Below, one piece after another: positions 5,361 through 57,138 of a stretch of 64,000 bases of DNA. The notes under the pieces were generated by a model. It was not told the DNA's origin, made no database searches, and saw only the letters and a program-made list of their open reading frames with translations. Position numbers and translations under genes: made by a program. Every line of letters begins with the position of its first letter. Positions within the stretch are counted from its first letter, which is position 1. This DNA comes from Selaginella tamariscina (Eukaryota > Streptophyta > Lycopodiopsida > Selaginellales > Selaginellaceae), in assembly GCA_003024785.1 (NCBI GenBank), contig PUQB01000531.1, positions 62,001 to 126,000 on the forward strand, written 5' to 3'.

Positions 5361-5785
5361 GTAGCCATGAATCCTTCAAAGTCTTCCATTAATGGGTCGT
5401 CACGCTTCAGCAAAGGGGCAACCCAAGCCCGTGGAGATCCAACTAGTAGGGATGCCAAAAGGCCAACCTTTTATGCATCCGTCGAGTAGCGGCGTGGTTG
5501 CATGCGGATCAAAAGCCTGATCTGATTCAGGAAACCTTGAAAATCGGCGTGATTGCCACTGAACTTTTTCGGCATGTTGATATTCGGCTTTGAAGAAGAG
5601 TTCAATGGAGAGGAAATCATGGATGTTTAAGAGAGAGCATGTGTAGCAGCCTTGGAAGATGCATCAACAGCTGCATGCGTCGCGTTGGTGGAACCTTGTA
5701 GATCTGTGACCACTTGGCACAAAGTGGCCAGTTCATGAAGCAAAATTTGGTGCTCACATTGAAATTGCTCAAAATCGGCTATGAT
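5361..5785 (-). mobile_element. Gag-like fragment, unit 1 (fossil)
   Basis: The minus strand encodes a retrotransposon gag core (pattern LLVGSPQAWVAPLLE..DDPLMEDFE) after an N-terminal region with a short heptad stretch. It is cut at its 3' side by the plus-oriented LTR. The best preserved copy is in unit 5. Confidence 0.7.
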
Positions 5786-13731: not shown

Positions 13732-14944
13732 GTAGCCATGAATCCTTCAAAGTCTTCCATTAATGGGTCGTCACGCTTCAGCAAAGGGGCAACCCAAGCC
13801 CGTGGAGATCCAACTAGTAGGGATGCCAAAAGGCCAACCTTTTATGCATCCGTCGAGTAGCGGCGTGGTTGCATGCGGATCAAAAGCCTAATCTGATTCA
13901 GGAAACCTTGAAAATCAATGCGATTGCCACTGAACTTTTTCGGCATGTTGATATTCGGCTTTGAAGAAGAGTTCAATGGAGAGGAAATCATGGATGCTTA
14001 AGAGAGAGCCTGCGCAGCAGCCTTGGAGGATGCATCAACAGCTGCATGCGTCGCGTTGGTGGAACCTTGTAGATCTATGACCACTTGGCACAAGTGGCCA
14101 GTTCATGAAGCAAAATTTGGTGCTCACATTGAAATTGCTCAAAATCGGCTATGATTTATGAAAGAAAGAAAAAGGAGGAAAACGAAGGAGAAGAACCAAG
14201 AAAAAAAGTAACTGAAAATCAGAGAGTTATGAAAGGAGTTACTATCAAACTGTCAAGTCACAATCCAAGAACAAAGAGGCTTGACTCAAAAGCAAGACAG
14301 GAGCAGGATAGGAATCAGGAGCAAGACAGGAATCAGGAGCAGGACAGGAACCAGGAGCAAGACAGGAATCAGGAGCATGACAGGAACCAGGAGCAAGACA
14401 AAAGCAAGACAAGAACTAGGAGCAAGATAAGGAAAGAACATGAAGTAAGGAACAAGACAAAAACAAGACAACATTGATCGTAAAAAGACTGGTGTTAATA
14501 ATAACTAATTGTACAACAATTAGGTCGGAGCTTTTATATTCACAACTCCAAGAGCTAATCTTGTCATGAGCCTAATCTAGTTATGTGTTAAAAATGGTGA
14601 CCCTTATCCTGTAGGTATATCCTATACTATATCTTATAAGCATATCTTGTAGGTATATATTATAAGCATATCTTATAGGTATATCCTATAGGCATATCTT
14701 GTATTCTGTATCTAAATCTTGCATCCTGTATCAGATCGTGACAATATCCACATGTACAAGTGCATGTGCACATATTATTATTATTAACATAGTGGATTTT
14801 GATACCTGCAGAATTGATTTTAATATGGACCACTGGAGGGTTGTATATAAGTTAGAATTTTTGGTTAATATAATATACACATTTCTATAATCCGAACTCT
14901 CACAACATTAAAATAAAAACAAATGCACAAATTTATGTAGATTA
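13732..14944. mobile_element. Gag fragment and minisatellite leader, unit 2
   Basis: Minus-strand gag remnant (about 13732-14155), then the purine-rich tract and the CAGGAGCAAGACAGGAAT minisatellite (about 14290-14400), then the TATCC-type repeat and the ATT repeat up to the SDR 3' end. Confidence 0.6.
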
Positions 14945-22400: not shown

Positions 22401-23581
22401 AAGCGGGGAATCATCGATAAGAAGGTGAATAGAAGGAGTATGCATATATATATATTTATAATGTGCCTGAGTACAAACTATCTCCGACAGGGGAGCAAGA
22501 TACAAGACACAAAGTTGACTCCAAAAAGGCCCCGACCCACTACCAGCCTTCCTGCTTATATAGTGGGTCACCTAGCGCTAGACCCTAGGTACAGGTGGTG
22601 CTTTCTTACTGGTCTGCCACCCTTTGACAAGTCCTGTCTGTCTCATTTATGCGCCTCCCTCACGCGTGCTGTCCTGCGTACCCTGGTAGTTGGTCTGGAT
22701 GATTGGATCTACGCTCGGTTATGGTGCTGCCTGACATCTGTCGTCATCAGTCCGTACTTGCGATACCTTCCTTATCCAGCGCTTCGTCCCGTCGCTTGTT
22801 CGCGCCGGCTGGTAGAGCGTGAGATGAGAGCCAGCAAACTGCTACTATTCTGTCAATGGTGGTGGACGAATTCCAGTGTCTTCAAGAGGAGAATGAGCAA
22901 CTCAGGAAGGAGACGCAGGCGTTTCGTCTGCAAGTCGCAATGGTGTGTAGGAATTGGACAAGGAAAAGGCCGAGTTTCAGAAGTATAAGGATCAGGAAGA
23001 GGTGGAATATCAGGAGGATACTCAGGACGTGTTGCTGTGAGGACACAGCAACGAATAAGGAGGGGGCAGTGTTAAAGGTAAAATATTAGGAGCATAGGAC
23101 ATCCTACTGTGGAGAGAATAAGGGTAGGAAGGTCTGTAGTAAGTATGGAAGGAGGAAAATCCTTACCGAGAGAAAAAGAAAAAGGAAAAGTGAGTAAGGA
23201 AAAGGAGAAGGAAAAGGAAATTTCGGAAAGGAAAAGGATGACGTGGCGAGAGGAAGGGTAGTTAAGGAGTAGTTAGGGCAAGGGAGAGGGTCTCCACAAG
23301 AAGTTCCAACAGGAGAGAGAGAGTCTTCACACTTTGTCTCTTGTATTCATGTTAGTAATGAAGGTGTGATGTGTGTTATGTATACTCTCAATGAATGGAT
23401 CTAACAAGGCAATAGCCAAAATCCGTTCTTGCCCTTGACTTCGAAGACCAGTCATTGTGGCATTAAGAAGGTGTTTTAATATATACTTATGGAGAGTTTG
23501 GGTGTATCCTTTCTTAAAGGTTAGGAGAAAGGAAACCGATTAAACAGGAAAATGTGGGGTTTCCGATTTTCCTGTTTAACA
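22401..23581. mobile_element. LTR-like segment, coiled-coil tail and LTR, unit 3
   Basis: LTR-like segment with TATA box (about 22401-22855), plus-strand coiled-coil tail (about 22856-23040), polypurine tract, then the LTR-like block 23070-23581 with TGTTAAA and TTTAACA ends. Confidence 0.6.
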
Positions 23582-24836
23582 GTAGCCATGAATCCTTCAA
23601 AGTCTTCCATTAATGGGTCGTCACGCTTCAGCAAAGGGGCAACCCAAGCCCGTGGAGATCCAACTAGTAGGGATGCCAAAAGGCCAACCTTTTATGCATC
23701 CGTCGAGTAGCGGCGTGGTTGCATGCGGATCAAAAGCCTGATCTGATTCAGGAAACCTTGAAAATCGGCGTGATTGCCACTGAACTTTTTCGGCATGTTG
23801 ATATTCGGCTTTGAAGAAGAGTTCAATGGAGAGGAAATCATGGATGTTTAAGAGAGAGCATGTGTAGCAGCCTTGGAAGATGCATCAACAGCTGCATGCG
23901 TCGCGTTGGTGGAACCTTGTAGATCTGTGACCACTTGGCGCAAAGTGGCCAGTTCATGAAGCAAAATTTGGTGCTCACATTGAAATTGCTCAAAATCGGC
24001 TATGATTTATGAAAGAAAGAAAAAGGAGGAAAACGAAGGAGAAGAACCAAGAAAAAAAGTAACTGAAAATCAGAGAGTTATGAAAGGAGTTACTATCAAA
24101 CTGTCAAGTCACAATCCAAGAACAAGGAGGCTTGACTCAGAAGCAAGACAAGAACTAAGAACAAGACAGGAGCAGGACAAGAATCAGGAGCAAGACAGGA
24201 GCAAGACAGGAATCAGGAGCAGACAGGAATCAGGAGCAAGACAGGAGCACGACAGGAATCAGGAGCAAGACAGGAGCAGGACAGGAACCAAGAGCAAGAC
24301 AAGAACTAGGAGCAAGATAAGGAAAGAACATTAAGCAAGGAGCAAGACAAGAACAAGACAAGATTAATCATAGAAAGACTGGTGTTAATAGTAACTAATT
24401 ATACAACAATTAGGTTGGAGCTTTTATGTTCACAACTCCAAGAGCTAATCTTGTCATGAGCCTAATCTAGTCATGTGCTAAAAATGGTGACCCTTATCCT
24501 GTAGGTATATCCTGTAGTATATCTTATAAGCATATCTTGTAGGTATATCTTATAAGCATATCTTATAGATATATCCTATAGGCATATCCTGTATTCTGTA
24601 TCTGAATCTTGCATCCTGTATCAGATCGTGACAATATCCACATGTACAACTGCATGTGCACATATTATTATTATTATTAGCATAGTGGATTTTGATACCT
24701 GCAGAATTGATTTTAATATGGACCACTGGAGGGTTGTATATAAGTTAGAATTTTGGTTAATATAATATACACATTTCTATAATCCGAACTCTCACAACAT
24801 TAAAATAAAAACAAATGCACAAATTTATGTAGATTA
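23582..24836. mobile_element. Gag fragment and minisatellite leader, unit 3
   Basis: Minus-strand gag remnant (about 23582-24005), purine-rich tract, CAGGAGCAAGACAGGAAT minisatellite (about 24160-24300), then the TATCC-type and ATT repeats. Confidence 0.6.
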
Positions 24837-31234: not shown

Positions 31235-31991
31235 ATGGTGGTGGACGAATTCCAGCGTCTTCAAGAGGAGAATGAGCAACTCAGGAAGGAGATGCAGGCG
31301 TTTCGTCTGCAAGTCGCAATGGTGCAGCAGGAATTGGACAAGGAAAAGGCCGAGTTTCAGAAGTATAAGGATCAGGAAGAGGTGGAATATCAGGAGGATA
31401 CTCAGGACGTGTTGCTGTGAGGACACAGCAACGAATAAGGAGGGGGCAGTGTTAAAGGTAAAATATTAGGAGCATAGGACATCTTACTGTGGAGAGAATA
31501 AGGGTAGGAAGGTCTGTAGTAAGTATGGAAGGAGGAAAATCCTTACCGAGAGAAAAAGGAAAAGGAAAAGATGAGTAAGGAAAAGGAGAAGGAAAAGGAA
31601 ATTTTGGAAAGGAAAAGGATGACATGGCGAGAGGAAGGGTAGTTAAGAAGTAGTTAAGGCAAAGGAGAGGGGTCTCCACAAGAAGTTCCAGCAGGAGAGA
31701 GAGAGTCTTAACACTTTGTCTCTTGTATTCATGTTAGTAATGAAGGTGCATATTATAAGATCTTGAGTGTGTGTTATGTATACTCTCAATGAATGGATCT
31801 AACAAGGCAATAGCCAAAATCCGTTCTTGCCCTTGACTTCGAAGACCAGTCATTGTGGCATTAAGAAAAGGTGTTTTAATATATACCTTATGGAGAGTTG
31901 ATGTAAAGATTGGGTGTATCCTTTCTTAAAGGTTAGGAGAAAGGAAACCGATTAAATAGGAAAAGGTGGGGTTTCCGATTTTTGTTTAATA
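31235..31991 (+). mobile_element. Coiled-coil tail, polypurine tract and LTR, unit 4
   Basis: The tail reads FQRLQEENEQLRKEMQAF onward with a stop near 31420. The purine tract precedes the LTR-like block at 31450-31991. Confidence 0.6.
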
Positions 31992-33198
31992 GTAGCCATG
32001 AATCCTTCAAAGTCTTCCATTAATGGGTCGTCACGCTTCAGCAAAGGGGCAACCCAAGCCCGTGGAGATCCAACTAGTAGGGATGCCAAAAGGCCAACCT
32101 TTTATGCATCCGTCGAGTAGCGGCGTGGTTGCATGCGGATCAAAAGCCTATCTGATTCAGGAAACCTTGAAAATCAATGCGATTGCCACTGAACTTTTTC
32201 GGCATGTTGATATTCGGCTTTGAAGAAGAGTTCAATGGAGAGGAAATCATGGATGCTTAAGAGAGAGCCTGCGCAGCAGCCTTGGAGGATGCATCAACAG
32301 CTGCATGCGTCGCGTTGGTGGAACCTTGTAGATCTACCACTTGGCAAAGTGGCCAGTTCATGAAGCAAAATTTGGTGCTCACATTGAAATTGCTCAAAAT
32401 CGGCTATGATTTATGAAAGAAAAAAAGGAGGAAAACGAAGGAGAAGAACCAAGAAAAAAAGTAACTGAAAATCAGAGAGTTATGAAAGGAGTTACTATCA
32501 AACTGTCAAGTCACAATCCAAGAACAAAGAGGCTTGACTCAAAAGCAAGACAGGAGCAGGATAGGAATCAGGAGCAAGACAGGAATCAGGAGCAGGACAG
32601 GAACCAGGAGCAAGACAGGAATCAGGAGCATGACAGGAACCAGGAGCAAGACAAAAGCAAGACAAGAACTAGGAGCAAGATAAGGAAAGAACATGAAGTA
32701 AGGAACAAGACAAAAACAAGACAACATTGATCGTAAAAAGACTGGTGTTAATAATAACTAATTGTACAACAATTAGGTCGGAGCTTTTATATTCACAACT
32801 CCAAGAGCTAATCTTGTCATGAGCCTAATCTAGTTATGTGTTAAAAATGGTGACCCTTATCCTGTAGGTATATCCTATACTATATCTTATAAGCATATCT
32901 TGTAGGTATATATTATAAGCATATCTTATAGGTATATCCTATAGGCATATCTGTATTCTGTATCTAAATCTTGCATCCTGTATCAGATCGTGACAATATC
33001 CACATGTACAAGTGCATGTGCACATATTATTATTATTAGCACATAGTGGATTTTGATACCTGCAGAATTGATTTTAATATGGACCACTGGAGGGTTGTAT
33101 ATAAGTTAGAATTTTTGGTTAATATAATATACACATTTCTATAATCCGAACTCTCACAACATTAAAATAAAAACAAATGCACAAATTTATGTAGATTA
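31992..33198. mobile_element. Gag fragment and minisatellite leader, unit 4
   Basis: Gag remnant on minus (about 31992-32410), purine tract, minisatellite nearly identical to that of unit 2 (about 32540-32650), then the TATCC-type and ATT repeats. Confidence 0.6.
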
Positions 33199-40680: not shown

Positions 40681-41768
40681 GGAATCACCGATAAGAAGGT
40701 GAATAGAAGGAGTATGCATATATATATATTTATAATGCCTGCCTGAGTACAAACTATCTCCGACAGGGGAGCAAGATACAAGACCCAGACTTGACTCCAA
40801 AAAGGCCCCGACCCACTACCAGCCTTCCTGCTTATATAGTGGGTCACCTAGCGCTAGACCCTAGGTATAGGTGGTGCTTTCTTACTGGTCTGCCACCCTG
40901 TGACAGAGTCCTATCTGTCTCATTTATGCGCCTCCCTCACGCGTGCTATCCTGCGTACCCTGGTAGTTGGTCTGGATGATCGGATCTACGCTCGGTTATG
41001 GTGCTGCCTGACATCTATCGTCATCAGTCCGTACTTACGGTACCTTCCTTATCCAGTGCTTCATCCCATTGCGCTCGTCCGTGCCGGCTGGCAGAGCGTG
41101 AGATGAGAGCCAGCAAACTGCTACTATTCTGTCAATGGTGGTGGACGAATTCAGCGTCTTCAAGAGGAGAATGAGCAACTCAGGAAGGAGACGCATGCGT
41201 TTCGTCTGCAAGTCGCAATGGTGCAGCAGGAACTGGACAAGGAAAAGGCCGAGTTTCAAAGTATAAGGATCAGGAAGAGGTGGAATATCAGGAGGATACT
41301 TAGGACGTGTTGCCGTGAGGACACAACAACGAATAAGGAGGGGGCAGTGTTAAAAGTAAAATATTAAGAACATAGGACATCTTACTGTGAAGAGAATAAG
41401 GGTAGGAAGGTCTGTAGTAAATATGGAAGGAAGGAAGGAGGAAAATCCTTACTGAGAGGAAAAGGAAAAGAAAAGGTGAGTAAGGAAAAGGAAAAGGTAA
41501 GTAAGGAAAAGGAAAAGGAAAAGAATGATGTGGCGAGAGGAAGGGTAGTTAAGGAGTAGTTAGGCAAGGGAGAGGGGTCTCCACAAGAAGTTCTAGCAGG
41601 AGAGAGAGAGTCTTCACACTTTGTCTCTTGTATTCATGTTAGTAATGAAGGTGCATATTATAAGATCTTAAGTGTGTGTTATGTATACTCTCAATGAATG
41701 GATCTAACAAGGCAATAGCCAAAATCTGTTTTTGCCCTTGACTTCGGAGACCAATCATTGTGGCATTA
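40681..41768. mobile_element. LTR-like segment, coiled-coil tail and left part of the LTR, unit 5
   Basis: LTR-like segment (about 40681-41134), plus-strand coiled-coil tail (about 41135-41315), polypurine tract, then the LTR from 41348. The LTR is interrupted after ATTA at 41765-41768 by the 14-kb DNA transposon and resumes at 55915. Confidence 0.65.
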
Positions 41769-41795
41769 ATGCACGTTGTAACTAAAGTGGGCATG
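41769..41795 (+). repeat. Left terminal inverted repeat
   Basis: Twenty-seven bases, starting ATGCACGTTG and ending GTGGGCATG, match the right end with two mismatches. Confidence 0.85.
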
Positions 41796-42250
41796 ATACG
41801 TGAAAATGGGAATATAAAATAAATTACTAATTAATACTTAAGTTTTAATTATTAATTAATCATTTAATTAATATGTAATTAAGCCTTAAATATTAATTAA
41901 TTAATTAATCCTTCAATAACCTTACTTAGTAAGGAATATTCCTAAAATATCTTAGAATATTCATATTATTCTAAAAATAGTTTACAATAATGAAGAAATA
42001 CTATCAAACATAATTACAAATGAAATCATTTTCTTATCAACATGTTAATTTTTTTATAAATACTTTCTTTCTATCATACAAAGAAATCTTTTCATTTTGT
42101 CTAAATCATCACTCTCCGGATTAATCAAATCATTTTGGTCAATATCTTGATGTTGTTGCCACCACTTAACACTCTCACGAATGCAATTGGGAGTTGCCAT
42201 CCTTGTTAATACATAAGATGTGATAAGAGAAGGTCTGCATAAAGGCTCAT
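41796..42250. other. AT-rich left subterminal region
   Basis: Very AT-rich, with runs of ATTAATTA and two GGAATATTC/GAATATTC motifs (about 41933-41965) that recur near the right end. No gene is seen. Such subterminal motifs are often transposase-binding sites; that role is only inferred here. Confidence 0.5.
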
Positions 42251-43305
42251 CTAAAAACTGACGTTCCTTAAGAATAATATATAAAGCGCCCGGTTGCTAT
42301 CCTTCATTTTATAAAATTCAATATCACGAGAAAGAAAAGCTTCAGGAAATGTATGATACGGTGGATACTGCTCACAAAAATTTTCGAGATTCTTCTTTCT
42401 GAGGCACGTATCCAAGTAGTTCACTAGCTCATCCATGATATCGGTATCAGAATATGGATCGAAAGTGATTGGATGAATACAAGCAATGTTTTGGTTGAGC
42501 ATAGCCTTCTGAGGAGAGTCGTCTACTACTAAGATCTGTGCATTCTTCATTATCCTTAAGCGACTGATCTCCCCATGAGTCCCAATTATTCTTTCATTCT
42601 TGAAGAAGTATGGCTTGCTTTCCTTTCTTATATTGTGAAATTCGAGAGGTTTATGACACATTCGCTGGTCAAAAATCCAATCTTTACGAATCACCTCTTC
42701 TGCAACACTACAATGTTTCTTAAGTAAATTCAACAGCGGTGTTAAGTTATGAATCTGCATGCATGACCAAATCCCCACAAGCGCACCCATCTCCTTAAGC
42801 TTTTGAAAGAGACGATCCAACCCTGGACGAAAAATAATATCATATCGAAATTTACCATGACAAGGAATGAAATCTCCTTGTTTGATTTCTTTTTTTATCC
42901 TGGGCCTTTGTCGATGAAGCAGAACACCATTGACATCCAACAACACAATATGGCCATGAGTAACATGAGATAGCGTTGCCTCTTGAATACTTTGCAAATC
43001 ACTTGTTTGCTCCCTTTCACATTTATCCGTTGCCACTATCTCGTTGCCTATCCCTTCATCATTTAATTGTACATCATCCTTACAAGATTCAGATATTGCA
43101 TGCGCTGAAGAAATTGATTTCGGAATGAAGCCAATAAAAATGATGATGAAGTGGCCCCCATGGTAACGATGTTTTGAGCTGCATTATTATCCATTTCCTG
43201 CATGAACTCTGTCATTCTGACATGTGGCACAAGAAATTGTCGCCAAACCCCTCTCTTACCTCATGGCAATGCTGAAAATCCATGTTCTCAATTATTTCAT
43301 TACAT
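42251..43305 (-). CDS. HAD-family NIF/FCP1-like phosphatase domain protein (transposon passenger)
   Basis: The main exon (42251 to about 43140) encodes an FCP1-homology phosphatase fold. Counting from a GTG-initiated frame at 43036: motif I VLLDVNGVLL at about 31-40, FRPGL at 69-73, motif II IWSC at 89-92, a KP pair at 129-130 and VDDSP at 171-175. The second Asp of the usual DxD is Asn, as in plant members that read DLNG. Upstream the frame stays open to about 43120, and an extra exon is likely at 43260-43305, between a TTTGCAG acceptor and a GAG|GTAAG donor. A second frame near 43080-43200 also looks protein-like, so a frame change or unseen splice lies there. The family removes phosphate from proteins such as RNA polymerase II tails; the substrate here is unknown. 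Confidence 0.75.
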
Positions 43306-43487
43306 CTGCAAAATGATAATTAGCTGACCTTAAAATTATCAAGGTATATTATTTACCTTGTTAATGTGTGACCCATGTTTGAACTAAAAGCTTCATTAAT
43401 CCTTGAGAATTTATTTTCTGTACAAATATAAAAGAAATATACAAAAATGCCTTATGTTACACTCATTTACAACTATTCATCACTCTA

Positions 43488-46400
43488 TCAATCATTCATT
43501 ATCAATTCTTCTTCGCTATTACCTTCTGAGTGAGGCGAAGAAGGTCTAAGCCGCTTGTGAGATGGTTCAAGATCTTCTGCATCTTCTATTGATGTTTCCA
43601 TGGGTCCTGGAGTGTGCGAATGTTCTGTACTCCTCGAGATAACTTCCGGTCTAATATCTGATTGAAGTTCGTTCTCAGACTCCGAGATTGAACCAGATTC
43701 ACCTTCAGAGCTATCGCACTTATCTGGAGGGAACTTTCTCAAATACGCCTTTATGGAATCGTTGGGGTACTCAGTTGAGACCCAATCTATCCACTTGTTC
43801 AGGTCCTCAACCATGGTCTTATCCTTTTCAACGGCAAACACACATGTATGCCGAAGGTAACACTCCTTCAAGACGGACCCCCTAGTGCAGTAGTCAAAAA
43901 CCCACGCATCACTGTGAGGACCCCTGATCAAGTTGACGATGCTCCGTGCCGCTTGACTTGTAATGTTTGGATAACGTACATTGCCGAATACGTCACTCAT
44001 ACCTATCGGTGTATCGGATGGAGGTTCAGGGCCGTTGGAGTGCAAACAGATGCCTGGCCAGTCATTTGGAAGCTTGAAATTGTTTGGCGCATTCCTAACA
44101 ACCAAGTGAACAACGTATCAATGCACTTGGGATTAGCATCGTTCATATAAAATCCTGTCCAACGATGTCTATTCTTCTTGGCGAAGGCGAAGGCAAAAGT
44201 ATCGGTGACATGAGCAAGAATCAAGAAATAAATACCTGAAAAAGTAGGTATCAGTGAAGAGCGCAAGCATGAATTCAATAATAAATACCTTCTATGTATA
44301 TGCTTGCACGGCTAAGTTTCTCCACCAGATCCTCTAGTGCCCTATCTGTCGAAAGATTTTTTGACACCCGCCGATCCATCACGAACAATTGAAACGGTTT
44401 CCTACAAGCAGTGATGTTACCCCATAAAGTCTCCGAATCTAACAACAAACATCTGTAGGGCTTGTCGTGATTCGTAGCATCCTCCTTTATAAGGTTCAAT
44501 TCGGTTCTCCGCTGCTGAAGGACTGCCATAAGAGAAGGCGTCATCCCAATGTTCTCCTTTTTGGCGTTGGCGTGCAATAGATTCTTGCCTAGATCTTCCG
44601 ATTGGTTCACCCATTCGACAAGCATATCATCGTTCGTCACATGCAAATATTTGCTGACCTCTTCATATGTTGAAGTCGAGGTCCAACCCAGTTTGTGGCA
44701 GTGTATTCCCAACCACTCCTTGAAATGCCTGACCGTCTTCAACTCCATTGCCTTGAGATGAAAAGGAGAGGTTGGGCTGCTGTTATTAATTTGTAGTTTG
44801 CCATCGATCACCAAATCAGCCAAGACTTCCATCTCCTCCATCGTTGTTCCATTTAAAGGCTTCAACCATGTGAGCTTGAAATCGTTGTCTACATCCTTTG
44901 TAGATTGAACAGACTTAGCCTTCGGCGTCTTACTGGGTTTCTTTGCAGACTTTTCTGAGGGCTCCCCTTCACTTGTCTGCTTCTTCTTCAGTGTTCCTTT
45001 TGAAAAGGATTCCATAATCCCCAACCATTTGGCAAAGATCCTATCTTCGGGGCAAGAAATCAACATCATCAGAAAGGATGTTTCCTTCCCGCCCACCTGG
45101 GCAAAATCAACTGCTGCAATTTCTTCAACTCTCTGAGGAAAAAGACAGATTAATATACCGGCGAGATAAATCCCGCCCAAACAATTTGCTTACCCGGTAT
45201 TCCGCAGATTGTGTATTCCCTGCGGTAGCTCTTTGTGGTCGCTGAAGAGATTCCCACACGGCTCGCGTGTGTTTAAACTTCTCCCATATTTTGCTGTTGT
45301 AGTGGTTGGTGTCGGCAGCGTCCCATTCCGCCGATAACTTATGGTACTGCTCGATTGTGAGATTCGGCTTAGCTAAAAACGCCGATCTTTTTGTCAGCTT
45401 CTCACGGGTATGCTCGGAAAGTTTTGTTGCCATCGTTCCTTTGTTGTGTTCATCGAGAAGTCGTTGGGCTGCCGTTATTGTGTGCTGGCCACTAATGATG
45501 TAGTACTTGATAGATTTTTATTCTCCGTCTGAATCTTCATGAGTTGTTCTGGTGTTGTGATCCAGACTTTGTCAGCGCCCTTCCTTCTTTCATAGTATGG
45601 ACACAAAACAGCATTATGTGGAACGGTATAAGAATTGTCGTCCTTCATCTTCTCCATGAGCTCAGCTACACGTTCCTGGTTGAGTGGCCTGTAATTGAAG
45701 TTTGGGTTGACGCTGCAATATTTAACCCTACAAGGATAAATCTTATCATCCAACATCATTTCCTTGTGACTTATTGCAGCATGAGATGCCACAGGTGCAG
45801 CTGACAAAACGATTGATGATTTTCTTTTGCGATCCGAATCAACATGTGTGATCCCCGACTGCAGCTGTTCTAGTGTTCTCGGCACACTCTTCCAGCTCCC
45901 AAAGCTTCCTAAGCAAATTGAACGTGATCTGTAGAGAACCTGAGACCGAGCCACCCTCTCAATCTCCTTATGATGTCGCTGTGTTCTTCTTCAATGTGAA
46001 GAGGGAAGATTGCTCCACTTGCTGATTTTCTGTATTGTGAAGCAATATCTCCTGACAATACACCTACTCGATGAGTCTGAAGATCTTCGAAGTAGACATC
46101 CAGATGGATCCCCTCCATAGATGGGCTTTCGTTGAGTTGAAGAAGAACTCCAAGGTCAACATCATTAGTGAACACGTGAACGTCATTATCCACAAGTCGA
46201 CAAAACCACCCGAAATTAATGTTGTAACTGACGACCTCTGGATCCGAGAACGTGACATTGGATGGAACAAGGCATATGTGTCGAGCATCGTCCAATCTGG
46301 GTTCGCAGCCTGCTTTCGGGTGCTTGACTAGCGAATCTACTTTCCATTGTTTTGCTTGTCCATGAGATGTGACAGAGGTTAATTTGACAGCAACCATGGT

Positions 46401-46632
46401 TGCTCCAATGCGCTTCCCATTTATCTTAAAATATGGCCAAGTTGATTCCAGAATCCCCCTGCCCATCTCTTCTCCTGCTCTTGTCTTTAATGTCACCTCA
46501 ATTCCACATCTGAATACAAAAATGATTAGTTCAAGTATCCGAGTATAACAGATTTTATTTTAATTCTTACCCAGAATTTGACGACGACTCCATACTAATG
46601 ACTCGATCTCCTTGTTTGATCAAATCGTCCTT
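43488..46632 (-). CDS. ParB-like plus DNA-methyltransferase-like multi-exon gene (transposon passenger)
   Basis: Exons read 46571-46632, 46509 down to 45194 (its first base completes a Gly codon), 45132 to 44289 and 44235 to 43488. The introns (46510-46570, 45133-45193, 44236-44288) are 53-61 bases with GT-AG ends. The N-terminal part is unrecognised. Near 45.45-45.75 kb it reads NYRPLNQERVAELMEKM and later YYIISGQHTITAAQ, the pattern of ParB/Srx-like domains (R-x-L start and a G-x-H-x4-A box). Near 43.87 kb it reads VFDYCTRGSVLKECYL and AVEKD, like motif I of beta-class DNA N4/N6 methylases, though one motif glycine is replaced. The C-terminus is acidic, then basic and Ser-rich. Three apparent one-base frame changes (near 45.99, 45.51 and 44.11 kb) suggest decay or consensus error. 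A start codon was not settled. Confidence 0.5.
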
Positions 46633-46733
46633 CTGCAAAATAATACACTATAATAAAATTATATAAAAACGCACACACACTTGTATAAACCCGAATATAC
46701 AAAAATAATACACAGAGAGAAGTAGACGTAATT

Positions 46734-46820
46734 AACTGTCCGAAGCTCACATTTGTGTTAGTGCAAAAGAAAGATAACATTTCGTTTTAGAACCACCACA
46801 AATGTGAGCTCTGGACAGTT
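46734..46820. repeat. 24-bp inverted repeat (hairpin) upstream of the minus-strand gene
   Basis: The arm at 46734-46757 (AACTGTCCGAAGCTCACATT and four more bases) pairs with 46797-46820, with two mismatches and a loop of about 39 bases. It lies about 100 bases 5' of the first recognised exon of the ParB/methyltransferase-like gene. The role is unknown. Confidence 0.7.
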
Positions 46821-46934
46821 TTACATAGATTCCTAGCTTTTACTCGAAATATTATGATAAGATGATAAAAGTAAATAAAATGAGATATGCAACTTATATA
46901 TACTAATACACATATATATTCACATGGAAGGTGC

Positions 46935-48427
46935 GGCGGGATTAATCTCGCCACCCCTTCAATGCCTCCTGAAAGAGTGGGCGGGATTAATCTCGCCACC
47001 TTTCTGGAGGCCTTGAACGGGAGTGCGGAATTAATCTTGCCACCCTTCTCGGTCTCAGAGAGAACTGGGCAGGATTTATTTCTCACACCCCTTCAGTGAC
47101 TCCAGAAAGGAGGCGGGATTAATCTCGCCCACCATGTAAGGGATGGTTAAATGAATTCCCCACCCTTCCCAGTCCTCCATTGGTATGTTGTAAACCTTCT
47201 ACGTTGGTTCCAACTCACCAATGGAGAAAAAAGGGAAGGGTGGCGGGATTCATTCTCCAACAGGCATTGAAGACTCGGCGGGATTAATCCCGCCGCCCAG
47301 GGCCTTCACTCGGTCCCTATGCGGCGGGATTAATCCCGCCGGACGCCAATTCCCTGCGCGGAATCGGGCGGGATTAATCCCGCCGCCTAGGCACTTCAGG
47401 CAGGCCAATGGCGGCGGGATAAATCCCGCCCGATTTCGCGAGGGAATTGGCGTCCGGCGGGATTAATCCCGCCGAACGCAATGCCCTGTGCGAAATCTTG
47501 CGGGATTAATCTTGCCGCCTAGGCCCTTCAGGCAGGCCAATGGCGGCGAGATAAATCCCGCCCGATTTCGCGCAGGGAATTGCGTCCGGCGGGATTAATC
47601 CCGCCGAACGGCAATGCCCTGTGCGAAATCTTGCGGGATTAATCTCGCCGCCTAGGCCCTTCAGGCAGGCCAATGGCGGCGGGATAAATCCCGCCCGATT
47701 CCGTGCAGGGCATGCGTACGCGGCGGGATTAATCCCGCCTACCATGTAAGGGATGGTGAAATTAATCCCACCACCCTTCTCAATTCCCTCCATTGGTATT
47801 TTGTAAACCTTCTCCGTCTCAGCAGAGTTAGTCGGGATTGATTCAACATACCAATGGAGGAAAAAAAGAAGGGTGGCGGGATTAATCCCGCCACCGGGTA
47901 ATGAAGGTTCGAGAGACTAATCCCGCCGCCCTCTCGTAAATCATGCGCTCACACATATATTTGCTGCGGCATTTTGAACAGGGATGGGTGGGGGCGGGAT
48001 TAATCCCGCCGCCCTCGCGAAGGGCATGAGCGTGGCCGGATTAATCCCGCCGTTCATGTCCTGCGTGAATTCCCTGGGCGGCGGGATTAATCCCGCCGCC
48101 TTACGCGCAAACATGTCATGCAGGCTCTTCGGTTAGCCTTCCGTGCAGGATCTTTCATGCATGCTCTTCAGTTAGCTTCATGAGCGGCGGGATTAATCCC
48201 GCCGCCCATCCCCTGTAAATGCCCTGCGCGGAATCCAGCGGGATTAATTCCGCCCATTAGGGCCTTCACACAGGCCATTGCCGGCGAGATAAATCCCGCC
48301 GCATTCCGCGCAGGGCATGGGTGAGTGGCGGGATTAATCCCGCCGCCATGGCCCCAACCATATAGCGGCGGGATTAATCCCGCCGCCGAGGCCATAAACC
48401 TATAGCGGCGGGATTAATCCCGCCGCT
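46935..48427. repeat. Palindrome array 1: about 28 copies of GGCGGGATTAATCCCGCC
   Basis: An 18-bp perfect palindrome recurs every 35-60 bases. About half of the copies are perfect. Variants mostly change one half (GATAAATC, AATCTCGCC, GCGAGATT). Spacers also repeat: a block of about 130 bases containing three palindromes is repeated near 47390-47720, and a block with ACCATGTAAGGGATGGT occurs at 47128 and 47738. Because the palindrome reads G-G-I-N-P-A with no stop, long open frames appear on both strands; these are by-products. The array lies on the 5' side of the minus-strand gene. Confidence 0.95.
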
Positions 48428-49214
48428 CGAGGGGCTTAGCGTGTGTGCGAGAGATAAAATTAATAAATAAAAATTATACAGATAAAAACACACACATATA
48501 TATATGTGTGTGTGTATATATATATATATGTGTGTGTGTGTATATATATATATATATGTATGTATGTATGTATGTATAGGAGTGTACGTGTGTGTGCAAG
48601 AGATAGATAAATAAATAAAATTATACAGTATTGGTACACATAATATATGTGTGTACATAGGTATATATATGTGTGTATATGTATATCGTGTGTATGCGTG
48701 TGAGCGAAACAAATAAAATCATATAGATAAACAAACACACACACACACATATATATACACAGGAGTGTGCGTGTGTGTGCGAAAGATAAAACTAATAAAT
48801 AAATAAAATTATACAGATAAACACACACATATATATGTGTGTGTATAGATATATAATCCATAGAGAAAGAGAGAGAGTCTGTGAATATATAAGCATATAT
48901 ATAACTAGTGTTGTATGTATGTATATATGTATATAGGTATATATATATTGTGTATATGTATATTGTGTGTATGCGTGTGTGAGCGAAACAAATAAAATCA
49001 TACAGATAAACAAACAAACACACACACACACATATACATACACAGGAGTGTGCGTGTGTGTGCGAGAGATAAAACTAATAAATAAATAAAATTATACAGA
49101 TAAACACACACACATATATATGTGTGTATATAGATATATAACCCATATGAATATATAAGCATATATATAAACTAGTGTTGTATACTATTTGTTAATATGC
49201 ATTGATTATATATA

Positions 49215-49246
<32 letters not shown>

Positions 49247-49517
49247 AAAGCAGTGTGCGTGTGTGTGGGAGAGATAGATCAATAAAAAAAATTTACAGAT
49301 ACTGGTACACATAATATATGTATGTATATATGTATATAGGTATATATATATATGTGTATATGTATATCGTGTGTATGCGTGTGTGAGCGAAACAAATAAA
49401 ATCATACAGATAAACAAACACACACCCACACACACATATACATACACAGGAGTGTGCGTGTGTGTGCGAGAGATAAAACTAATAAATAAATTTATACGCA
49501 CACTCCTATACATATAT

Positions 49518-49552
<35 letters not shown>

Positions 49553-49555
49553 TCT
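48428..49555. repeat. TG/AC and TA microsatellite tract
   Basis: Long runs of TGTGTG/ACACAC and TATATA with a repeated block of about 250-300 bases (GTGTGCGAGAGATAAAACTAATAAATAAATAAAATTATACAG type) occurring several times. Open frames on the minus strand consist of Y, I, T, H and C repeats and are not genes. Confidence 0.9.
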
Positions 49556-49660
49556 CACCTGTGTGCACAGCCGCCGCCGCCAATTTCACAGCCGCCGCCT
49601 CTTGAAACCCTAAGAATATACCTAAACCCTAAAGGAATTAAATATATATATTAACCCTAA
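49556..49660 (-). other. Possible 5' UTR exon with teloboxes
   Basis: On the minus strand a GCC/GGC-rich stretch ends in CACACAG|GTGAGA, a good splice donor. It is preceded by AAACCCTAA (telobox) motifs, which in plants are frequent near transcription starts. If transcribed leftwards it could be the first, non-coding exon of the ParB/methyltransferase-like gene, placing palindrome array 1 inside intron 1. No start codon is seen in it. Confidence 0.3.
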
Positions 49661-50520
49661 TAGAATATTCCTTCTGAGAATATACTTAAACCCTAAAAAG
49701 AATAAATATAGATTCGCCCTAAACGAATATTCTTTCATTATATTATTAGCGCGTGCGTGTGCGTGGGTGTATCACATACACCCCAAAATATATAAATCAT
49801 GCAGGGATTTAACATGTGTGTCCATGAGAGTGTTAAAGTTTCATGTGTATCAATACATACATAACACATATATTAATACACATAATATATACATACACAC
49901 GTTATACACACAGACATACATACATATTACATGGGTTTAGGGTTTAGGGTTTAGGGTTTTGGATTTAGGATGGATCATGCATGGTGGTGTAAGAAAGAGA
50001 GAGTGTTGAAAAATTATTTTTGTACACATTGCATATATTAGTACACATATATACTTACACATATTATACACAGATATACATACATAGTATATGAGAGAAG
50101 AGAGACAGTACATATTATGGATCATGCATGGTGTGTATTATACACACAGACATACATACATATTAATACATAATATTAGAAAGACCGAGTACATATTATA
50201 GATCATGCATGGTGTGTATGTTTGAGAGAAGAGAGACAGTACATATTAACATGGATCAATGCATGGTGTGTATGTATGAGAGAAGACAGAAAGTACACAT
50301 ATATACATACAGAGTACACATATATAATACACACGTGTATACACACAGACATACATACATATTACATGAGTAAATTCATTGTGTTACATATTAGGGTTTA
50401 GGGTTTAGGATGGATCATGCATGGTGTGAAGAAAGAGTGTTGAAAAATTATTTTTGTACACACATGTATACATAGGGTTTAGGGTTTAGGGTTTAGGGTT
50501 TGCTCCCAACAAGCTTAATA
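49661..50520. repeat. Interstitial telomere-like repeats and short microsatellites
   Basis: TTTAGGG runs at about 49934-49965, 50393-50410 and 50467-50500, within AC/TA-rich DNA that contains repeated GGATCATGCATGGTG blocks (near 49973, 50108, 50201, 50250 and 50411). TTTAGGG is the plant telomere unit. No gene is seen. Confidence 0.8.
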
Positions 50521-51853
50521 TAAATATTACACATGTAAATTCAATGTGTTACATACACACAGATTGAGTAACATATATCATACATGCGTTGAACATGATG
50601 TTTTCAATAAAGAAGCAACATATTTCTTCAGTTTGGTTTAGGGTTGTGCATGTGTGTGCATATGTGTTTTTGTAAGTTCTTGTAATGCGTGTGTAAATTT
50701 ATGATTGTGTTTATATTGTGTGCAAAACAACATCGAATAATTAAGAAAATAATATTAATAAACACACTATGAACATATTTTAAATTATACATAATAATAT
50801 ATGATTTTATCTAATATATAGCCATATATAGTTTTAATAATATATATTAATTTAATATTGATAAAAAGGTTTAACATTGAAATATTCTTGAAATAATAAG
50901 AAATTAATTGAGAAAATCCCATTAATATATACAAATGTAAATTAAGTACTCAAATAATTAACTAAATAATTATCATAATCATATTTAATATTGGAATATT
51001 CTTGGAATAATAAGAATATAATAAAGAATATCCATTAATATAAAGAAGATTAATTACTCAGTAATTAAGGAAATGATATATATATATATTATTAAAACTA
51101 TATATGACTATATATTAGATAAAATGATGTATTATTATGTATAATTTAAAATATGTTCATAGTGTGTATTAATTTAATATTGATAATAAGGTTTAACACA
51201 TGAATATTCTTGAAATAATAAACAAATTAATTGAGAAAATCCCATTAATATATACAAATGTAGAATAATTACTACAATAATTAAGAACAAGACTAATTTA
51301 ATTATGATAATCAGGTTTAATATTAAAATATTCTTCAAATATTAATAAAATATAAAGAATATCCCATTTATAAAAAAAACTAAATACTCGAGTAATTAAG
51401 AAATAATAATAATAAACAGACTATGAATATATTTTAAATGATACATAATAATATATCAATTTATTTATTGTATAAGTATATATTATATATATATAATATA
51501 TATAATATAAATATACTGAATACTAAGAATGTAGATAGTCTAAAATTTCGTAATATTAACAGCTTGAATCACTTGAATAACATTAATGTAATTTTAAAAT
51601 ACTCATTGGAACTGGAGAGTATATATGTCAGAGTGTCGGATATTTGTGTCAACTCATCTTAAATTTTATTTTCTGTTCTTTTTAAAAGATTTGAATTTCT
51701 GACATATGTATTGTCGGTCTGACATGTAAATTTGAAAATGCATTTAATTTCCCACTCAAATTCAGATCTGGTTCTTTCTCCGGTAAAGGTTTCTTCATTT
51801 CTGTATTTTTCACTCTTTAGATCTTCTTTTTTCTTCATAGTGATCATCTCAGG
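50521..51853. repeat. AT-rich region with a fold-back repeat
   Basis: Arms of about 92 bases at 50756-50848 and 51075-51166 are inverted copies (starting AACACACTATGAACATATTT). Each is followed by, or embedded in, a direct repeat of about 90 bases (50855-50943 and 51172-51262). A third partial copy starts near 51412. This resembles a nested AT-rich MITE family. No coding sequence is seen. Confidence 0.7.
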
Positions 51854-52177
51854 AGCGAGATTAATCCCGCCGGCTCTTCCTTGTCGGAGGGAGTCCAAGG
51901 CGAGATTAATCCCGCCGACTCTCTCCGAAGGGGTTGAGTCGGTGGCGGGATTAATCCCGCCGACCGTTCCTCGTCGGAGAGAGTCGCGGATTAATCCGCC
52001 GGACTCCCCCCGAGGGGAAGAGGCGGCGGGATTAATCCCGCCGGCTCTTCCTTGTCGGAGGGAGTCCAAGGCGGGATTAATCCCGCCGACTCTCTCCGAA
52101 GGGGTTGAGTCGGCGGCGGGATTAATCCCGCCGACTGTTCCTCGTCGGAGGATTCGTGGGCGGATTAATCCCGCCCA
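51854..52177. repeat. Palindrome array 2: about 8 copies of the same 18-bp palindrome
   Basis: Eight palindromes lie 36-42 bases apart and are arranged as a four-copy block of about 160 bases present twice. Spacers differ from those of array 1 and contain CTCTCCGAAGGGG and TTCCTTGTCGGAGG. It lies about 140 bases upstream of the first exon of the transposase-like gene on the plus strand. Confidence 0.95.
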
Positions 52178-52314
52178 TCAGTTGTATTAATCAAACATGA
52201 GATATTATCTCTAAACATAATTATGTATTATTGCATATGCAGTAACAGTAATTCAGATTTCTTAGAAATATTGCATAAACAGATATTATAAATAATACAA
52301 TTATTTATGTGCAG

Positions 52315-55300
52315 GACAATATGTTTAATACTGGAGATAAAGTATGTCTTCTTCGGAACAACGAGATAGTTGGCACTGGAACTGTGGAAGTTCGAGATAA
52401 TAATGCATCATGTCACAATATTGCCCAAGGATCTTGTGTGTACGTATGGGTGAACACCATTTACAAGCATGTTGAGGTTCTGGGAATGGATTTGAGGAGG
52501 GTTCTCCTGTATTGTGGAATTTGGATGAAGTCAAGGCTGACACAGAATATGCAGAGTCACAAACAAATAGTAGCACGAGTTTACCAGATGATGGCTTGCC
52601 TGCTGTGATGGATGAGGTGATTCTCTTTCTTCGTGAGATTGAAGTCGGAAGAGCATCATCACAGCTATAAATCCAATGGAAGCAGTGTCAGAAGAGAAAC
52701 TAGGGTCCGACTTCGTGGGTGTAGTTGTGACAGAGGTTTCACCTAATGGCACATTGTATCTTGGATCCCTCGTGAGGTGGCGAACATCTGAATTAAGACG
52801 GCAAGATGGTTCAACATATTCTGGGTTGGATTTCAATAATAACAACCCGGAAGAACAACTCAATATTTGAAGAGGTTCCTTGCATTGGTCCTATTGTAAG
52901 AAAAAGGCGATTCATGGGTTGTAGATCTTCCCCTGTAAGTTTCAGCAAGAGGGTAAAGATGGATCCTACATCTTCCGAAAGTATTACGAGCATTTCCACG
53001 ATTGACTGTTGCAAGAAGAAGTGTTATCAGATGGCAGACCGGAATGAAATTACCCAATGTAGACATGTCTTTCGTATGCCTCACCCAAAAGCAAAGGCAT
53101 GAGTTTGTATATGCTGCACTAACTGGGTGTATTGATGGAATGGCCTCGGACACAGGTTATCAAAGTACATCCATGGTATTAATAAGGTGGCCATCTGCTT
53201 CAAAGCTTGGTACAGTATATACGGGATCCCAAAGACCACGTCTACCGTCGGAGGGATGAGTGGCTAGATGGAGCGCGAACCTCAGTTCATGGGAACACTC
53301 GCTTGGTCAAAACCCACTCTCACATCATGGCAGCCATAGAGATACTCAAGGCTTTTGTGGAAGCAAATGCAGACAGGATGCCTCACAAATGCCGAACCAC
53401 AAATGCAGGGGTCAGGGAAAATCTCAAGGTTTTTGCCTTCAATCTACACTCAATTGAAACTGTGTGAACATGTGAACAAGTGCCTCAGTTTGATGGGGCT
53501 CCAAGCAATCTGCACTGGTACCTTCAACAACATATGGAATACTCATTTTAAGGATGTGGAGATTGCAAAACACTCTAGCTTTTCTAAGTGTGACACTTGT
53601 ACATCATTGAAGGCTGCAGAGGCTTGTGCAGAACCTTGGTGGAGATCACTACCATTCAAAGGAAGATGGAGGCCCACATGATTGCACAACAAACTTGCCG
53701 GTCTCAGTACTATGCACACCGCATGCTTTCTGTGTCACGCCCATCAGAGTACCTGTGCTTGATCCATGACAAGATGGATCATTCAAAGACCAGCATTCCA
53801 AAGCTCTTTGCAACACCAAAGTGCCTTGGAAATGTCATGAAACTTCCGATTTCATTGACAGGTGTGCTAACACATGGACACGGTTGTGAGTCTAGCGACT
53901 CCAATTTCACTATTGGGTCGTTAGCCATGTGTTTCAGAAACCTTGAAGCCCACTCACAGACAAGTCCTATCAGTGATCTCAAAGTGAAGAAATAACACCT
54001 TCAACCTTTACATAATGCTCTCATGAACACATCTGCACTTGAGGCTACTTGGGAATATGAGAGGCATTGTCAGCAACCTGCACAAAAAACAGATGGCCCT
54101 GTTGAGAGTTCTGGTTCAGTGGAGGGATCTAGCTCAAATAGTGTACATGTGTCCTCAACATCAAATAAGCTTCCTCGTCATTTGCTTTTACAGATGGATA
54201 ATTGTGCAGGCGAGAACAAAAATAGGTAAATCATTTTACTTAAGGGTTTCTCAAGCTCATACTTACTTTTATTTTCTAGATATGTGCTAGCATACTTGTC
54301 AATGCTTGTTGCCAAAGGTGTGTTTGAAACAATCACACTCAGTTTCCTTATGGTTGGTCACACTCATGAAGATATTGATGCGTTCTTCAGCAAGGTCTCC
54401 AACTCTACAAAAAGGACAAGTGCACTTACCTTACCGCATATGATGAATCTTTTTGAAAATTGCATCTCCAAAAAAAGTTGTGCTTTGCTTGTGACTGAGG
54501 TGCTAGACTTCAAAAAATTTCTCAAGGAGTAATATAAAAGAAGGGAGTGATTCTTTAGTTGGTCACCTTGTGCCGCTACAATTCTTTTTCTCCATACGAG
54601 ATGGTATACCTATTATGCAGTACAAGTTACGGCCATCAGAGCAGGAGTGGTTACCGAAAGAGGGCTTAATGCTCTTCAAAAGTGGAGAGAATGGAAAGCC
54701 ACTTCTCCCAGAAGAACAACCAGACCCTATTCCATTGAGTGCCCAGCTCAAGGAACAAGAGGTTATTATTGATGGCATTAAAAAATATGTGGCATGGGTT
54801 CAAAAATCGATGCCAAAGAATTCTGATAAGGCAACTGGTTACTCAGAACTATATAAGCATGTGGTCAACTATTGGGAGACTGTTGTTCGAGAGTTGGAAG
54901 GGCCTACTGTCACAAGTACAGAATTGCAACACCCTTTCTGGCCTAAAATAAGGTGGCGAGAGGAGATTGAAATGACATCACTGAGCATAGACGACATAAA
55001 AGCCAGTAGTGATGTGGAAGTGCAAACTCCACACTTTGTTGGACAAAGGAACCAAAAACCTAAAGCATACTTTGATTGCTGCAAGGATCTTCAAAAACTA
55101 ATGATGGTTCTCATTACTCCAGATGCGTCATATAATCAGCCTATTTGGATGGGTCAAATTATCGACACACCTGAAGTAATCACAAAAAATAGTATTGTTA
55201 AGGTTGCATGGTTCAAACCACAAAAAAGGCGACACGAGAAGGAGAGCGAAAGATATAATGGATGCCTAGAGAAAACATGGTCTCCCAATCAAAAAGACCT

Positions 55301-55409
55301 AGCATGTTTTATAAATGTTAAATCCATTCGATATGGGTGGATGTCAAGAAGCGTTGATAAAGTCACGATTAACAAAACTGCAAGGGAATGTATGCTTTCT
55401 GAAGCTTAA
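52315..55409 (+). CDS. DUF7869-like protein, probable transposase (decayed or multi-exon)
   Basis: A plus-strand coding series starts after an acceptor-like GTGCAG, with ATG at 52321. Parts in order: N-terminal region (GDKVCLLRN..GTGTVEV), a Cys-rich patch (CCKKKCYQM, near 53.01 kb), a region like DUF7869 N-termini (CFKAWYSIYGIPKT, near 53.19 kb), FSKCDTCTSL (53.58 kb), LCLIHDKMDHSKTSIPK (53.76 kb), LLLQMDNCAGENKNR (54.19 kb), FLMVGHTHEDIDAFF (54.34 kb) and a basic, Trp-rich C-terminus to 55409. A 54-base intron, 54226-54279, joins NKNR to YVLAYL. The Asp, Asp and Glu/Asp in the three conserved phrases could form an RNase-H-type DDE centre; that is inference. Several frame changes (for example near 52.48, 53.10 and 54.53 kb) indicate decay or unseen introns. 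Its place inside the TIR element supports a transposase role. Confidence 0.6.
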
Positions 55410-55887
55410 AGCAATTACAAAATTATAAAAATCATATATTTAATATTCATAATTATTATAAACTCTTTAATAATAGTACCAAATTGTATACTTAACTATA
55501 TAAATTTAAAAAATGATATGGAAGATTGACTATATTATTATAGGATTTTATATATATATTATTACTACTACAAATTTTTAATTAATAATGTTATATTTAA
55601 ATATTAATATTTTAATAACAACATCAATATTTATATAATGTACCTCTTATGCTCTTCCTTAATTGTTATATTAGGCAATATATTATATAATTTAATACAT
55701 TCTACTTTTATAATGTTATTAATTTTTGTTCAATGAATGCTATAATTTATTAAAGGGTAAATACAAAATAGAATATTCTAAAGAATATTCTCTTTTCAAA
55801 CATATATTCTAAAGAATATTCCTTTAATATTAGAAAATGCTAATTAAATAGCTAAAATTGTTAATTATTAGGAAATGGGACTATAGC
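55410..55887. other. AT-rich right subterminal region
   Basis: Non-coding, very AT-rich. It contains three GAATATTC palindromes (about 55777-55825), mirroring those near the left end. No gene is seen. Confidence 0.5.
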
Positions 55888-55914
55888 CATGCCCATTTTA
55901 GTTACAACTTGCAT
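55888..55914 (-). repeat. Right terminal inverted repeat
   Basis: Read inward from 55914 it begins ATGCAAGTTGTAACTAAA and continues ATGGGCATG, pairing with the left end at 25 of 27 bases. ATTA follows at 55915-55918. Confidence 0.85.
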
Positions 55915-57138
55915 ATTAAGAGAAGGTGTTTTAATATATACCTTATGGAGAGTTGATGTAAAGATTGGGTGTAACCGATTAAACAGGAAAAGGTGGGGTT
56001 CCAGTTTTCCTGTCTAATAGCAGCCACGAATCCTTCAAAGTCTTCCATTAATGGGTCGTCACGCTCCAGCAAAGGGGCAACCCAAGCCTGTGGAGATCCA
56101 ACTAGTAGGGATGCCAAAAGGCCAACCTTTTTGCATCCGTCGAGTAGCGGCATAGTTGCATGCGGATCAAAAGCCTGATTTGATTCAGGAAACCTTAAAA
56201 ACGGCGCGATTGCCACTGAACTTTTTTGGCATATTGATCTTCGGCTTTGAAAAAGAGTTCAATGGAGAGGAAATCATGGATGCTTAAGAGAGAGCATGCA
56301 GAGTAGCCTTGGAGGATGCATCAACAGCTGCATGCGTCGCATTGGTAGAACCTTGCAGATTTGTGACCACTTGGCGCAAAGTGGCCAGTTCATGAAGCAA
56401 AATTTGGTGCTCACATTGAAATTGCTCAGAATCGGCCATGATCTATGAAAGAAAGAAAAAGGAGGAAAACGAAGGAAAAGAACCAAGAAAAAAAGTAACT
56501 GAAAATCGGAGAGTTATGAAAGGAGTTATTATCAAACTATCAAGTCACAATCTAAGAACAAGGAGGCTTGACTCAGAAGCAAGACAAGAACTAGGAACAA
56601 GACATGAACCAGGAACAAGACATGAACAGGACAAGAACTAGGAGTAAGATAAGGAAAGAACATGAAGCAAGGAACAAGACAAGAACAAGACAATTGATCG
56701 TAGAAAGATTGGTGTTAATAATAAATAATTGTACAATAATTAGGTCGGAGCTTTTATTTTAACAACTCCAAGAACTAATCTTGTCATAAGCCTAATCTAG
56801 TCATGTGCTAAAAATGGTGACCCTTATCTTGTAGGTATATCTTGTAGTATATTCCATAGGCATATCCTATAGGTATATTTATAGGCATATCCTATATTCT
56901 GTATCTGGAATCTTGCATCCTGTATCGGATCGTGACAAGATCCACATATACAATTGCATGTGCACATATTATTATTATTAGCATAATGAATTTTAATACC
57001 TACCGAATTGATTTTAATATGGACCACTGGAGGGTTGTATATAAGTTAAGATTTTTGGTTAATATAATATACACATTTCTATAATCCAAACTCTCACAAC
57101 ATTAAAATAAAAACAAATGCACAAATTTATGTAGATTA
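55915..57138. mobile_element. Right part of the interrupted LTR, gag fragment and leader, unit 5
   Basis: The LTR continues to about 56019. The minus-strand gag remnant (about 56020-56443) is the best kept of the five, with a clear N-terminal heptad region and the LLVGSPQAWVAPLLE core. Purine tract, a short minisatellite (about 56575-56640) and the TATCC-type and ATT repeats follow. Confidence 0.65.

Follow-up and report, generated by a model that had tools for sequence, protein, structure and literature searches.

Sola transposons, as passages of a plant review describe them, encode a DDD transposase, generate 4-bp target-site duplications and end in inverted repeats of 11-1124 bp; most are 2-9 kb long and some exceed 15 kb, and they occur in a moss (Physcomitrella) and are uncommon in flowering plants (PMC10741241). 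One described case is Sola1-1_Ec32 of the brown alga Ectocarpus, a 21.5-kb Sola-1 transposon with a protein of ~1,000 residues on the opposite strand that combines ParB-like and DNA methyltransferase parts; the pertinent passages of that paper count 1,989 Ectocarpus Sola-1 copies, 2 of them intact and together 0.17% of the genome, and suggest, citing earlier work on similar proteins, that the ParB/methyltransferase passengers of giant DNA transposons possibly bind and modify their own transposon (PMC12477816). In social amoebae, Sola2 elements are reported to carry a Fanzor1 passenger and to have AWWT duplications (ATAT, AAAT, ATTT) (PMC3627910, in part). Here we analysed a stretch of 64,000 nucleotides of Selaginella tamariscina (assembly GCA_003024785.1, contig PUQB01000531.1, positions 62,001 to 126,000), hereafter the window, to which all positions refer, and which contains a 14,146-bp insertion with a DUF7869 gene, a long minus-strand gene and two arrays of perfect palindromes. 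We think it probable, though well short of certain, that this insertion is a member of a family of cut-and-paste transposons, 14-15 kb long and recently amplified, which most likely falls within the Sola superfamily and whose minus-strand protein binds the palindromes.

The insertion occupies 41769-55914 and is bounded by 27-bp inverted ends and a flanking ATTA duplication. The terminal features are as follows:

41765..41768, no strand: left target-site duplication ATTA, read in the sequence
41769..41795, plus strand: 27-bp terminal inverted repeat of the left end, with C as its sixth base
41934..41962, no strand: two subterminal GAATATTC words at the left end (at 41934 and 41955)
55771..55821, no strand: three subterminal GAATATTC words at the right end (at 55771, 55783 and 55814)
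55888..55914, minus strand: 27-bp terminal inverted repeat of the right end, with A as its sixth base
55915..55918, no strand: right target-site duplication ATTA, read in the sequence

The left end (41769-41795) reads ATGCACGTTGTAACTAAAGTGGGCATG and the reverse complement of the right end (55888-55914) reads ATGCAAGTTGTAACTAAAATGGGCATG, with an identity of 25/27 (2 mismatches). For the empty-site test, the element was removed in a script, one ATTA was kept, and the joined flanks were aligned to the window. They match four copies of a long terminal repeat (LTR) in single alignments spanning the junction (4866-5661, 13213-14032, 23093-23882 and 31473-32291), with an identity of 87.6-88.7%; the empty site is thus real, because the joined flanks align unbroken with all four copies. 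An earlier note on this DNA, made from the sequence alone, had proposed a 14.1-kb DNA transposon with firm borders and an empty site present four times in the window, and was correct in both respects. The LTR copies start at 4866, 13213, 23093, 31473 and 41369/55915, with steps of ~8.35, 9.88, 8.38 and 9.90 kb that resemble a tandem LTR-internal-LTR arrangement, and the transposon sits in the fifth copy of this array.

The same note had suggested searching the genome for the end pattern, which proved fruitful. The exact pattern occurs at 2,725 places (1397+1328) in 300.7 Mb of genome sequence, compared to 0 for the reversed control. These ends, together with the full sibling copies, exclude both a unique insertion and a misassembly. 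Internal markers are similarly abundant: an exact 32-mer across the transposase intron start was found at 1,661 places, a marker of the HAD gene at 1,474 exact places (a different, first HAD marker gave 6 only), a marker of the ParB-like region at 1,441 exact places, and a 44-mer from the interval that separates the HAD gene from the minus-strand gene at 687. The first 100 ends listed form 27 neighbouring plus/minus pairs, 16 of which span 13.8-15.4 kb, and none (0/27) is shorter than 10 kb, so that no short non-autonomous derivatives (miniature inverted-repeat transposable elements) were found among them. Nine full siblings were compared with the window copy; the lengths range from 13.9 to 15.3 kb, and the siblings are 93-99% identical to the window copy over the first 5.7 kb and the last 2 kb, one of the ten (L027/L028) being clearly more diverged than most. 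On this sequence evidence the copies are young and the family recently amplified. Among the matches listed on contigs C1-C102, the HAD marker lies correctly oriented 9.2-18.1 kb from the transposase marker in 48/81 cases (44 at 9-13 kb); near-complete copies therefore make up about 60% of the sample. At ~14.5 kb per copy, the marker and end counts put the family at roughly 5-8% of the 300.7 Mb searched.

Perfect 4-bp duplications flank 10 of the 18 end pairs read (binomial P ~4e-20), which comprise 5/10 with the window included, 5/7 further complete pairs and 0/1 (L011/L012); three incomplete end pairs were left out of this count. The duplications ATTA, TAGA, CCTT, CGTT, ATAG, TTCT, ATAA, AAGT, ATGT and ATAG have no fixed sequence. 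For the 8/18 pairs without a perfect duplication, recombination between copies or assembly joins might be the cause. Near the ends, GAATATTC occurs twice in the left 300 bp of 9/10 copies and once in 1/10, and two to three times in the right 300 bp of each of the 10 copies, compared to an expectation of ~0.012 on either side. These words resemble a heat-shock element, and could also be a transposase site.

Two divergent genes, of which the right-hand one lies on the plus strand, dominate the coding content, in addition to a shorter gene close to the left end:

42054..43215, minus strand: HAD/NIF-like gene, 388 aa in the intact sibling L067; the window copy has a broken frame
43488..44235, minus strand: exon 4 of the long minus-strand gene; by motif reading, a methyltransferase-like region
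44289..45132, minus strand: exon 3, with an exact intron word in 7/10 copies at either boundary
45194..46509, minus strand: exon 2, N-terminal domain and ParB-like region
46571..46593, minus strand: exon 1 with start codon, inferred, splice sites judged by eye
52321..54225, plus strand: exon 1 of the DUF7869 transposase, carrying the first two of the catalytic-type Asp motifs
54226..54279, plus strand: transposase intron, GT..AG, inferred
54280..55409, plus strand: exon 2 of the DUF7869 transposase, with GHTHEDID as the third motif and a C-terminal region whose counterpart in a homologue is predicted to fold BAH-like

The DUF7869 domain of the right-hand gene product was confirmed by Pfam. Members of this family have three near-invariant Asp motifs placed on a predicted RNase H-like core, and the protein looks like an RNase H-fold DDD transposase. 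The structure model is that of a DUF7869 homologue (P0003); residues 28-108 are modelled as a KOW/Tudor-like barrel and residues 929-1031 as a BAH-like or similar barrel, and these end barrels might target chromatin states. With this model, Foldseek found no PDB structure at an E-value of 0.001 or below, and a PDB sequence search with a DUF7869-profile query returned nothing of use. Relatives were found in mosses, a liverwort, molluscs, a coral and Chromera.

With 4-bp duplications in 10/18 pairs, a DDD transposase and 27-bp inverted repeats, the element has the features described for Sola, to which it most likely belongs on such features rather than on homology to a named Sola transposase. 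The earlier statement that the transposase candidate is not of a superfamily that its author could name was accordingly too strong, as its DDD RNase H-like core and the 4-bp duplications fit the Sola description. That DUF7869 transposases form a separate superfamily outside Sola is a rather unlikely alternative, for which it speaks that the word DUF7869 was found in no paper within the literature searched, that the likeness to Sola is known from descriptions and not from sequence comparison, and that the duplications are not restricted to A and T (CCTT, CGTT), unlike the AWWT or AT-rich ones given for Sola2 in the pertinent part of PMC3627910. However, the 4-bp duplications, the DDD motifs, the relatives in mosses and the ParB/methyltransferase-like companion all fit the descriptions of Sola or Sola-1. 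Like the Fanzor-carrying Sola2 elements, as far as that source describes them, this element is of Sola type with a passenger gene and 4-bp duplications, but their passenger is Fanzor1, and CCTT and CGTT occur here too.

Elements of the CACTA/EnSpm type have CACTA ends and 3-bp duplications, whereas this one ends in ATGCA and makes 4-bp duplications. Large size and several genes might also recall a viral or Polinton-like element; yet no polymerase, capsid, protease or ATPase domain was found in the ten reading frames scanned, the duplications are of 4 bp rather than the 6 bp of Polinton-like elements, and DUF7869 is present instead, which makes this alternative highly improbable.

The long minus-strand gene (46593-43488) consists of four exons encoding ~975 residues. 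Its ParB-like motif, YRPLN...ISGQHT..AA, was identified by eye, and the ParB/methyltransferase label as a whole is a motif reading of that kind: Pfam, NCBIfam and PHROGs gave no ParB or methyltransferase profile match (for ParB at E up to 10), and the weak matches of the protein (E 0.04-0.12) were all to unrelated or unnamed families. Moreover, no homologue was found among 5.8 billion proteins by a method that requires shared five-residue words, PDB sequence searches with methyltransferase-like and ParB-like queries gave nothing of use, and structure prediction of the ParB-like half yielded no usable model. Thus, of the gene content and the profile and structure searches put forward in the earlier note, DUF7869, the HAD/NIF gene (PF03031) and a large minus-strand gene stood up, the first two by Pfam, whereas the ParB and methyltransferase assignments gained no profile support and the Foldseek search no PDB match.

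The catalytic motif IV of N4/N6 DNA methyltransferases is (D/N/S)PP(Y/F/W). At its expected position, placed by eye, DSET is found in 9/10 copies and DSES in 1/10, and PP in none; therefore, no methyltransferase activity is expected, and the methyltransferase-like tail looks catalytically dead. The gene nevertheless shows purifying selection, with shared variants of 47/41, dN/dS ~0.37 and p 4e-6; single-copy variants are likewise depleted (65/54), for which the greater divergence of L027/L028 may account in part. An N-terminal domain common to this protein and the transposase is no more than a hint, given an hhalign E of 0.033 with a probability of 1.5%, and 6.7 bits for a 32-relative profile against the first 250 residues (maximum of 500 shuffles, 5.8) compared to 4.2 bits against the whole protein.

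Like Sola1-1_Ec32, as its description goes, this is a giant DNA transposon with the transposase on one strand and a ParB/methyltransferase-like protein of ~1,000 residues on the other. The kind is therefore not new, because a Sola-1 element with an opposite-strand ParB/methyltransferase gene has been published from Ectocarpus. They differ in that more than half of the sampled copies here, about six in ten, are near complete compared to the reported 2/1,989 intact, that a HAD gene is added, and that motif IV of the methyltransferase looks lost. The palindrome arrays have no counterpart mentioned for Sola1-1_Ec32 in the pertinent passages of PMC12477816, the likeness being one of description and not of sequence. 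Compared to Sola in general, both passenger genes and operator-like arrays are absent from the description in the passages of PMC10741241. The suggestion that this may be an undescribed large autonomous element thus holds only in part, as the kind was already published, and autonomy may hold for the family and is not supported for the window copy, because its reading frames are broken and ~10 transposase residues present in siblings are absent.

The palindrome arrays are the most unusual feature of the element and new with respect to the published description; the earlier note makes no mention of them. Each of the two divergent genes has one array ahead of it, in the stretch that separates the genes:

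46935..48424, no strand: palindrome array A, 24 sites of GGCGGGATTAATCCCGCC with at most 3 mismatches
48425..51853, no strand: central stretch, largely of low complexity, containing microsatellites and two short runs of (TTTAGGG)n
51854..52175, no strand: palindrome array B, 7 sites

GGCGGGATTAATCCCGCC reads as a perfect palindrome of 18 bp. In the window, 32 sites match it with no more than 3 mismatches, 17 of them exactly and all within the element, compared to 0.01 in shuffles; one degenerate site (45160-45177) falls in the intron between minus-strand exons 2 and 3. Across ten copies, array A holds 18-28 sites and array B 7-19, adding up to 30-46. Genome-wide, the exact word occurs 27,128 times (control 0), and the sites listed on the first contig, checked by eye only, cluster like the arrays of the element. 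Spacing is regular as well, as 204/315 neighbour distances below 100 bp in the ten copies measure 43-46 bp, or about four DNA turns. In nine copies, 340-352 bp lie between the minus-strand start codon and the beginning of array A upstream of it, and in the five copies with the landmark word, 146-155 bp lie between the end of array B and the transposase start codon downstream of it.

We read the palindrome as a putative dimer binding site kept by selection, and propose the element's own ParB-like protein as first choice for the binder, with host E2F factors as the main rival. The halves, GGCGGGA and TCCCGCC, resemble the core of the plant E2F site, and the arrays are placed like promoter elements, one ~150 bp and the other ~340 bp upstream of a start codon. 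The same transposon might accordingly have its palindromes bound by host E2F/DP-type factors for expression in S phase, with the ParB-like protein otherwise employed. However, canonical plant E2F words are rare in the three copies checked (2, 1 and 1), and few halves in the same copies stand outside palindromes (3/51, 6/72 and 2/79). Moreover, the middle is nearly fixed: exact outer halves stand 6 bp apart in 217/222 cases in the ten copies, and these 6 bp read ATTAAT in 202/217 and ATAAAT in 15/217. Scarce lone halves and a nearly fixed middle are what one dimer site would give, unlike independent E2F sites, and we regard binding by E2F as unlikely.

Array B is a 45/90-bp tandem repeat and site counts vary between copies, as would be seen if the palindromes were neutral minisatellite cores that bind nothing and owe their sameness to recent tandem duplication. 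Against this, the flanking spacers differ widely and share little information, whereas the 18 core columns are conserved (four copies profiled, with sites chosen by inner columns, compared to outer halves in the ten-copy gap analysis). In addition, the core differs by 1.4% of aligned bases between the ten copies and the spacers by 6.3%, although the pairwise counts behind these figures are not independent, core-likeness entered the selection and misaligned units inflate the spacer value. A neutral origin seems to us unlikely.

Bacterial ParB-parS partition systems pair a ParB protein with palindromic sites. If the motif reading is right, the present element would similarly carry both parts, a ParB-like protein and its palindromic sites, on the same mobile DNA, but it differs in having tens of sites at ~44-bp steps and a eukaryotic host, and no ParA-like domain was found in the ten reading frames scanned. 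TNPA of maize En/Spm is an element-encoded protein that binds many short subterminal repeated sites, which are not long perfect palindromes. Binding of an element-encoded protein to many repeated sites in its own DNA would be common to both, whereas the arrays here lie between two genes, and the ends and duplications differ.

We propose that the transposase would cut at the inverted ends and join with a 4-bp stagger, its KOW/Tudor-like and BAH-like end domains possibly reading chromatin, and that copies with a broken transposase may be mobilised in trans. The minus-strand protein, ParB-like by motif, would bind the palindromes as a dimer, thereby marking the element, and might set the output of both promoters. 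A more specific form, in which a non-methylating descendant of a ParB-methyltransferase binds arrays of tens of palindromes, set at steps of about four helical turns, in a ParB/parS-like self-recognition, spreads or bridges between copies, controls both promoters and perhaps clusters or shields copies, is a tentative suggestion that we hold to be doubtful as a whole.

The HAD/NIF-like gene matches PF03031 with 44.7 bits for the window frame and 47.5 bits for the intact sibling L067 (cut-off 21.8); a PDB sequence search with it gave nothing of use. The HAD catalytic motif is DxDx(T/V), whereas both the window frame and L067 read DVNGV, in which Asn takes the place of the second Asp. The evidence that selection acts on this gene is weak, with shared variants of 18/11 in 21 loci and p 0.02-0.12 depending on the transition bias (19/11 in 22 loci before L006, the same copy as L010, was dropped). 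Frame breaks vary among otherwise near-identical copies (L009-L028), and a few of those inspected sit in single-base runs; therefore, some may be assembly errors rather than decay. Locus L031 (1-3342) is a derivative with an internal deletion, its HAD gene region directly adjoining the transposase, and in the transposase copy L030, 1,186/3,360 bases are N. The (TTTAGGG)n runs of the central stretch, the plant-type telomere repeat, lie at 49936-49956 and 50478-50498, and at least one run of three or more units is present in 7/10 copies. Such runs, and the bryophytes among the DUF7869 relatives, would fit a seedless land plant as host, short of proof. No Rfam family and no tRNA were found in the element region.

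Altogether, the cutting enzyme is probably of a kind that has a name but has been little studied. DUF7869, whose function is unknown in Pfam, is now connected with large-scale transposition in the recent past, and may come with end domains that resemble chromatin readers. The arrays ahead of both main genes may indicate how the element identifies and regulates itself. The passages of PMC12477816 on ParB/methyltransferase passengers name no binding sites for them, and candidate sites are present here. As a selected passenger protein and tens of perfect palindromes occur in one element, the idea that such a transposon binds itself can therefore be tested at the bench.
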